A DNA stretch of 64,000 bases from Apostichopus japonicus (taxonomy: Eukaryota > Echinodermata > Holothuroidea > Aspidochirotida > Stichopodidae), in NCBI RefSeq assembly GCF_037975245.1, contig NC_092569.1, positions 16,538,001-16,602,000 of the forward strand, read 5' to 3'. A program made the position numbers and the translations under genes. Position 1 is the stretch's first letter. Each line of letters opens with the position of its first letter. The notes under the pieces were generated by a model that did not search any database, was not told the origin of the DNA, and worked only from the letters and a program-made list of their open reading frames with translations. Positions 59,589 through 62,500 of this stretch are shown here, in pieces.

Positions 59589-62500
59589 TTACACTGGACG
59601 TATCTTCATTTCAGCGTACTTTATGTTGTAACTACTCCCTGGAAGATTATACCAGAGTATGCTCTTGTAATTAGTACTGCCGGCTGTGTACAATCCGTTT
59701 AGGTTAGAATAATAGTTATAATAATAATAATAACAATAACTACCGTACCACCACGCTCCGTGACAATACTGGGCGAAGTGATAATCAGAGCGAGGATCAT
59801 TGTCGCGATTGAAGGTCGAAAAAGATTGGTTCCTGTGATTCGCCATCCTGTCGTTTGCTGCGAAAGGAAAACACAAAATCGAGATGAAGTAGACAGGAAT
59901 CTTCATTTTATTATTTGATTACACGTTCATTAAATACTGGATACATTTGTTGGAGATAATGAACAAGCTATACAATATAATATGTAAGAATCTTTCTAAA
60001 ATGTTATGTTGATAGTTACATCGATTTGCCTCAGAGTGTACTTGTGGTATCCAGATGTGATACCACAGCTGTCATTAATATGTCTAATTTTCTATAAATC
60101 GCCATTATTGGATCAATTTGTATTGACTTTGCATTCCCCCAAAGTAAGTTATAAGCGATAGGGGGAAATATCAAGCAATATTTTTTGATATGTCTTTGTT
60201 TAGTATACAGTAAAACTATGATATCACACTTGTTTCCTCAACTTCATTTATTAAACCAAGTTTCTAACAATTTCAGCGATTAATTACATGGATAAATTTT
60301 ACAATTACTGTTAAACTTAATGACAAAGATTAGAACCATGTGTTTCTGTTGTCATCGGTTGTTTCATTTATATATATATATATATATATATATATATATA
60401 TATATATATATATATATATATATATATATATATATATGTATATATATATATATATATATATATATATGTATATATATATGTATATATATATATATATATA
60501 CAGATATCTTACATTTCTAGAATAACAAGGTGTTTTGCTTCTGTTTTATTCCCTTTTTATTCTTATTTTGTTTGTTTTGTGTTTTTCTTTACTTTCATAA
60601 AGGGCTTTATTGGTATGACTATATGAGAGCAGGGTAGGACATAGGTGATGGGGAGTGATAGGATGAAATTTATGAAAAACAAGACTCGCTGTGAAGTACA
60701 CATACAAGTACTTTTTTTTGGACCCCATCCTATCATACTTTGGAATATCTTTCCACTTCCCTATATCTCTACTTCCTAGTTGACACTCAGACTGTAAAAA
60801 AAAACATAACACGGGAAATGAATTTGACGAAGAACATTCTAGGTATATAATCATATCTTATAGCGACTCTTTAAGTAACTATATATCTTGTCATCTGTCT
60901 ATGCAGAGTTTACTACCTTTATTGTTGGAACACATTCAGTAATAATAGTAATAATACATGTGGGTTGCACGTTGCCTAATGTCACAAATGGTACATTTTC
61001 CCAATATGCCTAGTGTTTGTTACCTTTAAATTTCGCATTGATCTATATATATTCCAAACTCAATTCTACCTGACCAGCTTTCTTCCGATTTGATTACAAA
61101 CAGTGTACTAATTGAAGAAAAATAGTCAGTAATTGTAGATATCGTTTTTGAGCTGATAATTTCTAAAATGTCTGCGTATATGCTTCATATTTGATGAATG
61201 GTTACAATCGGCTAATGAACTGACAAACTAAATACACGGGTTAATTTGACGACAAATGTTAGAAAGGGAGGTAATGGATCAAGGTAGTAATGTATAATTT
61301 GGTAGAGGCGTTAATAAACTTCTTGCTAATCTTCAGTACTTTGAAATATCATTGATAAGGTATCGATAAAGACAAGCAAATTCCACGAGGTTTTATATTT
61401 ACGTACCTGTAGTGCTGGAGCTATCGTATTCTCCAAGGCCAACTAAACGATACTTAGTCTCTTTATCGCTGATCCTAAACAGGTCGTACTTCGCAAAATA
61501 GGGATCTCCATTCACGTTGTTTAAATCAATGCGAAGCATGTAATCCTTTTGGTTAGTTAAGAGTGATATTTTATCGTTGCCAAGCCAAAATTCCCTCTTT
61601 AGGAAACCAAAGCCATCTCGGTATTCTTCCCAGTCTCTGTAAAACTCTACAGAACCATCGACCCGGCGTTGGAAGACCTGGTTAAGTTTCAAAACAAAAC
61701 ATGACATATTTGGTTGAACATAAAGTACAATTTGTGCGATGTGCGTTTGATGCGTATAATGTATCAGTGTGGTTAGTGTTTTAATGGTTCGTATTACGTT
61801 GAACAGATACGGTAGCTTGTGCACCGCTTAGATTTTTTTCTAACGGAATACATGGTTTTCATATATTTTATGCTCTTATTGCGAAGATTGCAAAGAAATC
61901 GCATTTTAGAGAACAAATAAAATATAACTATACACATACTTCAGCAAGCACGCAAAATAGAAATTAATTAAGGGTAATATGTTAGGTTCTTACCGTCCAG
62001 CCTCCTCCGTCAATTGAGTTATTACAGTAAACTTGAAAAGGTTCATTGGCTCCATCTGGCTTAATTAGATAAACTCCAGATTCAGAGGTACTCCCTTCAC
62101 ATTGGTCGTAAACTTCTTTACAATCTCGAGGATATTCTGGCTCTTGGTAGAAAAAGTAGGAAGAGTCTGTAGAAATGAAAGAAAAACTTTTTGGGTGAAC
62201 TACCGAACTCGATGTCCCGTTTACCTGACTCTCGATTAAGGTAAAATTACGGTTTGCAGAAGAAAATGTTTGTCAAAATAGTAAACATAAATCTTCTATA
62301 CATTTCTCTGCTTGAAAGAACACCATGGAAGTACACATTGTAAAATCGTAAAAAGAAACAACAAATTTACAGAATAATCTTAAATGAAGTAACATAATCA
62401 AAAACAAATCCTGATCAGTTCTGGTAACTATTTCTGCTTAGTTTAAACGACAAATGTTGGTCTTCTTATACCGCCGCGACAAACCTTAGAAAAAATAATA

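Follow-up and report, generated by a model that had tools for sequence, protein, structure and literature searches.

Exon 5 classes and a triplet-bearing clamp loop in a tandem array of fibrinogen-domain genes from Apostichopus japonicus

The stretch of DNA analysed here (the window, 64 kb from the sea cucumber Apostichopus japonicus, 33% GC) contains five tandem fibrinogen-domain (FReD) genes on the minus strand, labelled A to E, in which the domain is encoded by exons 3, 4 and 5. Exon 5 is split in two old classes, I (A and C) and II (B, D and E), which are joined to nearly uniform exons 3-4. The explanation that we favor, and hold to be fairly probable, is that class cassettes recombined with near-identical exons 3-4 within the array and that, in addition, class II gained triplets in the loop that corresponds to the acetyl-binding clamp of related lectins. 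The evidence is drawn from five related gene copies in one assembly.

The array and the assignment of its genes

The profile Fibrinogen_C of Pfam (PF00147, curated cut-off 22 bits) matches the ORF that carries exon 5 of E (57.1 bits, 3e-15), the ORF of exon 5 of D (59.2 bits, 6.6e-16) and exons 4 and 3 of E (105.8 and 37.5 bits). All four matches exceed the cut-off, which places these sequences among the FReDs. The exons of A, B and C were located by tblastn with E and A as queries, without a Pfam scan of their own. In all five genes the reading frame is open through exons 3-5, the sole stop being the end of exon 5, and GT/AG splice contexts are found at the exons. The array probably consists of at least five FReD genes with secreted products. 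The features are collected in Table 1, where the exon numbering is taken from the "exon 5" of an earlier, sequence-only reading of the same DNA. The exon 4 intervals overrun the probable GT donor by about 5 nt and those of exon 3 by about 3 nt (their last codon, GTA, is the probable start of the intron), a negligible share of the dS sums given below. The exon 1 matches of A to D likewise extend past the GT donor, and exon 1 of E is expected outside the window.

Table 1 Features of the five FReD genes (positions in the window)
Feature	Gene	Interval	Strand	Basis or remark
Exon 5 as analysed, class I	A	6145-6390	-	tblastn
Exon 5 as analysed, class II	B	18137-18388	-	tblastn
Exon 5 as analysed, class I	C	32644-32889	-	tblastn
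Exon 5 as analysed, class II	D	46229-46489	-	one extra codon in the SSANCK segment
Exon 5 as analysed, class II	E	59589-59852	-	GAC codon after AG acceptor to stop; Pfam Fibrinogen_C
Loop, 7 residues KSNNYYV, class I	A	6262-6282	-	
Loop, 9 residues GIYCYYYYA	B	18254-18280	-	
Loop, 7 residues KTYNYNV, class I	C	32761-32781	-	
Loop, 11 residues	D	46349-46381	-	
Loop, 13 residues	E	59706-59744	-	contains a (TAT)5 run
Class switch in intron 4, class I-like towards exon 4, class II-like towards exon 5	E	61007-61086	-	80-nt window scores, blastn pieces
Exon 4	A	7836-8111	-	tblastn, donor/acceptor context
Exon 4	B	19567-19842	-	tblastn, donor/acceptor context
Exon 4	C	34403-34678	-	tblastn, donor/acceptor context
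Exon 4	D	47739-48014	-	tblastn, donor/acceptor context
Exon 4	E	61402-61677	-	tblastn, donor/acceptor context
Exon 3	A	8657-8833	-	tblastn
Exon 3	B	20399-20575	-	tblastn
Exon 3	C	35246-35422	-	tblastn
Exon 3	D	48334-48510	-	tblastn
Exon 3	E	61991-62167	-	tblastn
Probable exon 1, signal peptide	A	12884-12973	-	tblastn
Probable exon 1, signal peptide	B	26309-26398	-	tblastn
Probable exon 1, signal peptide	C	40892-40981	-	tblastn
Probable exon 1, signal peptide	D	53771-53860	-	tblastn

In FREPs in the narrow, molluscan sense, one or two IgSF domains precede the fibrinogen domain. No Ig domain was found in the 14 ORFs of the window that were scanned against Pfam, a set that was not picked for upstream exons and in which the 5' end of E, lying outside the window, is not represented. 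Relatives of the FReD exons were absent from collections of virus, phage, bacterial and archaeal contigs, as expected for such collections (exons 5 and 4 were compared with the viral contigs, exon 5 with the genome contigs), and neither Rfam at its gathering threshold nor a tRNA scan gave a match in the window.

Some other features of the window were recorded in passing. Eight other ORFs compared with Pfam yielded a sub-threshold match to TNP-like_GBD (23.9 vs 24.8 bits), in a transposase-like ORF at 1269-1766 (minus strand), and one further match (E = 0.043) that is well below its cut-off. The ORF at 87-206 (minus strand) has a strong signal-peptide-like start (MGSAAMLLCLCVVFFVF) that differs from exon 1 of A to D, and perhaps belongs to another gene running out of the window. 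Two related ORFs on the minus strand (16112-16468 and 57077-57334, 81% identity over 81 residues) belong to no Pfam family and are located downstream of exon 5 of B and E, respectively. An ORF at 29589-29840 (minus strand), which spans a TTA array, was not accepted as a gene.

Exon 5 classes and exchange between copies

Pooled dS rises from 0.069 in exon 3 to 0.134 in exon 4 and 0.590 in exon 5. Within the classes, exon 5 dS amounts to 0.27 for A-C and 0.17-0.42 among B, D and E; between the classes it reaches 0.68-1.12. The dN/dS of exon 5 is 0.15-0.56 overall. The exon as a whole is thus under purifying selection, which provides no argument for rapid diversification, and the genes look functional. 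The near 3' flank does not align between the classes. In four of the six between-class pairs (A-B, A-D, B-C and C-D), the intron 4 homology detected by blastn extends no further than about 15 nt beyond the exon 4 donor; for A-E and C-E it continues into the intron.

The relationships among the copies were studied separately for the 5' flank, exons 3-4 and exon 5, by submitting all 15 topologies per region to AU tests. The best tree of the 5' flank is ((C,D),(A,B),E) and every tree that groups A with C is rejected; C and D are 97.5% identical over about 1.5 kb of this flank. For exons 3-4, the three trees that unite D and E are kept and the other 12 are rejected. The best tree of exon 5 is ((A,C),(B,E),D), and here only trees that unite A and C survive (two of the three at the 5% level), the three C+D trees being rejected. 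Moreover, the exon 4 side of intron 4 of E resembles A and C, and its exon 5 side B and D. Since the regional trees conflict and intron 4 of E switches class, exchange between copies is required. Together, these comparisons point to recombination between copies as a larger visible source of pocket diversity than slippage. An assembly error in the repetitive array could mimic the mosaic of E, but it would less easily account for all the conflicts together.

Long (TA)n arrays are restricted to intron 4 of B, D and E (18908-19013, 47018-47112 and 60369-60500), and intron 4 of A and C contains no run of at least six TA units. These arrays mark the class II cassette and could favor exchange. A and D share a 3.0-kb stretch (12759-15776 and 53647-56665, including the probable exon 1) that is 96.7% identical, compared with 81-89% in the other aligned A-D pieces, and that is perhaps a recent conversion or duplication tract. 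Two-copy tandem repeats with units of 149 and 159 bp are located upstream of exon 3 of B and C (24124-24436 and 38935-39245) and match each other.

Pocket residues and the triplet tract of the clamp loop

According to the excerpted account of FIBCD1 (PMC3908420), Cys414 and His415 bind the acetyl oxygen through their main-chain nitrogens, behind the cis peptide that follows Asn413; the Cys401-Cys414 disulfide connects the calcium site with the pocket, which is lined by Tyr405, His415, Tyr431 and Trp443 and has Ala432 at its base. The five exon 5 proteins were aligned with fragments of FIBCD1 and ficolin-2. Three MAFFT settings gave an identical alignment, which is uncertain by one residue near 396-400, 413-415 and 431-432, and the FIBCD1 numbering was verified by 15 residues named in the same excerpt. 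The sequence-only reading had placed the loop between the WWY/WWH and NLNG motifs next to the ligand site. In the alignment, the loop replaces the residues that form this site in the relatives; by homology, it is the acetyl-binding clamp itself. The loop lengths read from the translated exon 5 (7 residues in A and C, 9 in B, 11 in D and 13 in E) are those of the earlier reading, whose loop coordinates were accurate to 1-2 bases; the same interval has 6 residues in the solved chains of ficolin-2 and FIBCD1. A two-residue strand register rule suggested by the odd lengths of all five loops was rejected as too weak, because class I contributes effectively a single value and class II three, and because ficolin-2 and FIBCD1 have 6.

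The calcium-site residues Asp393 and Asp395 are both Asp in all five copies. Position 401 is Leu or Phe throughout and only the class II copies (B, D and E) have a Cys at 414, so that no copy has the Cys401-Cys414 pair. Position 405 is Tyr in A and C and Cys in B, D and E, His415 is absent from every copy, and the place of Trp443 (Tyr in TL5A and ficolins) is taken by Ser or Asn in all five. Position 432 is Cys in D and Tyr in the other four, so that Tyr431 may have been retained, displaced by one residue. The acetyl-lectin set made up of Tyr405, His415, Tyr431, Trp443 and Ala432 is not found, and none of the five copies retains the canonical N-acetyl clamp and pocket. Beyond the loop, the copies differ in the pocket mainly by substitutions, apart from one extra codon in D.

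Exon 5 encodes an even number of Cys in every copy (0 in A, 2 in B, 0 in C, 4 in D and 2 in E), but exon 3 carries an odd number (three in each copy), so the even counts hint only weakly at pairing. One of the two extra Cys of D is beside the clamp Cys and the other is aligned to 432. The extra SSANCK codon of D lies close to pocket position 431, and there D has Cys in place of the Tyr of the other four copies. The FIBCD1 excerpt (PMC3908420) names a helix 400-405, in which Cys405 is four positions further on than 401; the clamp disulfide of class II has therefore probably moved by one helical turn, if these Cys pair as we infer, and in class I it is absent. An AlphaFold2 run on exon 5 of E with the five-row window alignment produced no usable model (mean pLDDT 33.3, pTM 0.15).

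At a threshold of 30, Tandem Repeats Finder reports a period-3 AAT array in the E loop (59708-59739, 10.7 copies, 79% match, score 43) and a period-12 array in the same region (59703-59738), neither of which is reported at the default threshold of 50. Pure period-3 runs of 14 nt or longer occur three times in the 64 kb: one, of 16 nt, is in the loop of E (59718-59733), and the other two (29755-29773 and 29775-29791) are both outside the FReD exons; the longest pure triplet run of the D loop is 9 nt. All 20 loop Tyr codons are TAT, compared with 34 TAT and 69 TAC elsewhere in exons 3-5, although the five copies are related and neither codon nor repeat counts are independent. Tested by gene against the rest of exons 3-5 (Fisher), the bias is clear for E only (p = 0.0015), plus weakly for B (0.02), the other values being 0.05 (D), 0.12 (C) and 0.13 (A).

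When synonymous codons are resampled at the base composition of the introns, the period-3 self-match of the loop exceeds expectation in B (p = 0.004), D (0.002) and E (0.023), and not in A (0.41) or C (0.82). The longest pure run, evaluated at the same composition, gives p below 0.09 in none of the five (B 0.15, D 0.23, E 0.10). Among 195 eleven-codon control windows without loop overlap in the same exons, three reach 0.0235 or less and none reaches 0.005 or less. Fixed eleven-codon windows over the loops give weaker signals (best p 0.04 in B, 0.0145 in D and 0.058 in E, among the 13 of 17 loop-overlapping windows with at least 15 nt of overlap). The signal of triplet gain in B, D and E is thus real but moderate, and depends on the measure and on how the window is cut; A and C have none. 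The tract of B, D and E is more repetitive than its amino acids require by period-3 matches, but not by longest run. The earlier description of the loops as triplet repeats therefore holds in these three genes, beyond what codon choice would lead one to expect, and does not extend to A and C, which have no repeat signature.

Origin of the diversity and comparison with known systems

These observations may be explained as follows. Exon 5, which encodes the ligand-pocket and calcium sub-domain, exists in two old classes. Recombination, either by crossing over or by gene conversion, would have joined these classes to nearly identical exons 3-4, its breakpoints lying within intron 4 or next to it, and the clamp loop of class II would have lengthened further by in-frame gain of TAT/AAT-type triplets together with point changes, replication slippage being the simplest process for this gain. 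In the resulting family, the front part would be constant and the pocket rewritten. Triplet gain would be at most a second layer, within class II. An altered, non-N-acetyl ligand and a secreted role in immunity or body fluids may be inferred from the sequences.

Other scenarios could account for part of the evidence. The one closest to the sequence-only reading makes in-frame slippage in the triplet tract the main and ongoing source of diversity in the recognition loop. The period-3 excess of B, D and E at the synonymous level, the exclusive use of TAT for loop Tyr (20 of 20) and the location in the E loop of the sole pure triplet run of at least 14 nt within the examined exons are congruent with it. 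Yet the signature is missing from A and C, whose 7-residue loops come from the other old class, the pure runs are short (16 nt in E, 9 nt in D), and the pocket differs outside the loop mostly by substitutions, with a single extra codon in D. Slippage remains plausible inside class II, as the periodicity of B, D and E suggests, but recombination appears to be the larger contributor, and we regard slippage as unlikely to be the main mechanism. The stepwise series of lengths once proposed across the five genes does not survive: A and C differ from B, D and E as old classes, the trees conflict and E switches class in intron 4. Alternatively, constraint could have been relaxed: acetyl binding would have been lost long ago, and the loop would be a tolerated low-complexity spacer without function in which AT-rich mutation pressure led to TAT and AAT codons. 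The window has only 33% GC, the canonical pocket residues are gone in all five copies, and the p values rise when resampling passes from codon usage to intron composition (from 0.006 to 0.023 in E, from 0.0002 to 0.004 in B and from 0.0001 to 0.002 in D). Against this stand the retention of Asp393 and Asp395 in all five, the even Cys numbers of exon 5 in every copy (0, 2, 0, 4 and 2), tempered by the odd number in exon 3, and the purifying selection, a measure that concerns the whole of exon 5 and not the loop separately, which resists reliable alignment. Relaxed constraint therefore seems to us somewhat unlikely.

The third possibility concerns the exons rather than the loop. Two ancestral genes could have diverged into classes I and II, their front part being later homogenised by gene conversion without any cassette having moved. 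The low dS of exons 3-4 in all pairs would be expected in that case. Nevertheless, about 1.5 kb of 5' flank, 97.5% identical, unites C, of class I, with D, of class II, and intron 4 of E begins class I-like and continues class II-like. Since the C-D flank identity and the switch in E require exchange between the classes, a history without cassette movement is rather doubtful. Homogenising the front and transferring the back amount to two descriptions of overlapping events, which the data do not fully separate. We thus retain the recombination of exon 5 cassettes, with triplet gain restricted to class II, as the preferred explanation.

Several parts of this explanation have precedents. The acetyl-binding FReDs of ficolins, tachylectin-5A and FIBCD1 have in common with the array genes the Fibrinogen_C domain, Asp393/Asp395 and the WWY...NLNG frame. 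They differ in having 6 rather than 7-13 loop residues, in Cys401, replaced by Leu or Phe in the array, and in His415 and Trp443, likewise replaced; class II has Cys405 and a loop Cys instead, whereas exon 5 of class I has no Cys. FREP expansion is known in sea cucumbers, as stated in the available part of PMC13228809, and an excerpted account of A. japonicus itself (PMC5638244) reports FREPs that are likewise expanded, clustered and tandemly duplicated, with 21 on one scaffold; unlike the present analysis, that excerpt describes neither loop nor cassette structure. Binding of N-acetyl sugars is reported for a shrimp FREP whose pocket residues are conserved (PMC7858579, in excerpt). In the pocket, there is a resemblance to the FBG domains of mosquitoes and flies (PMC1242226), for which the excerpted text describes loop insertions in the P sub-domain and changed binding-site residues, and proposes different binding sites. 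The two Cys equivalent to residues 206 and 219 of TL5A are reported in that family, a pair that is not kept in the array, and the excerpt mentions no triplet tract or cassette exchange.

Comparable ideas have been put forward for other immune genes. In the Rlec C-type lectins of prawns (excerpt of PMC7536079), slip mispairing of coding repeats was proposed to change the protein, and further differences between types are evident in one exon, as in the array; nevertheless, these are C-type lectins with units of 30/33 bp in the second exon, and involve neither a fibrinogen domain nor triplets. In the sea urchin Sp185/333 genes, also tandem and immune, microsatellites were proposed to promote duplication or gene conversion (PMC3091723, in part); the proteins are unrelated, and in the array the (TA)n repeats are confined to intron 4 of class II. 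Among the matches listed by a literature search that left subscription journals outside its range, there was neither a triplet tract nor an exon-cassette exchange in the pocket loop of a FReD. FReD P sub-domain indels, slippage of coding repeats in lectins and tandem FREP arrays are known already, and what would be new is the combination seen here.

Among the recognition molecules of invertebrates, FReD proteins form a main class. In the array, the pocket is contained in one exon, the front half is near constant and the point of exchange can be read, which makes the germline diversification of a binding site testable. The moved or lost clamp disulfide and the loop of 7-13 residues also mean that a Pfam match alone does not justify the name "acetyl-binding lectin". 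More speculatively, and with a small probability in our view, the array could represent a germline diversification in two layers, in which cassettes of intron 4 and exon 5 move between tandem genes with a common, constant front half while the triplet tract of class II resizes the clamp loop, the clamp disulfide being re-registered or dropped, so that individuals would differ in their non-N-acetyl pockets.
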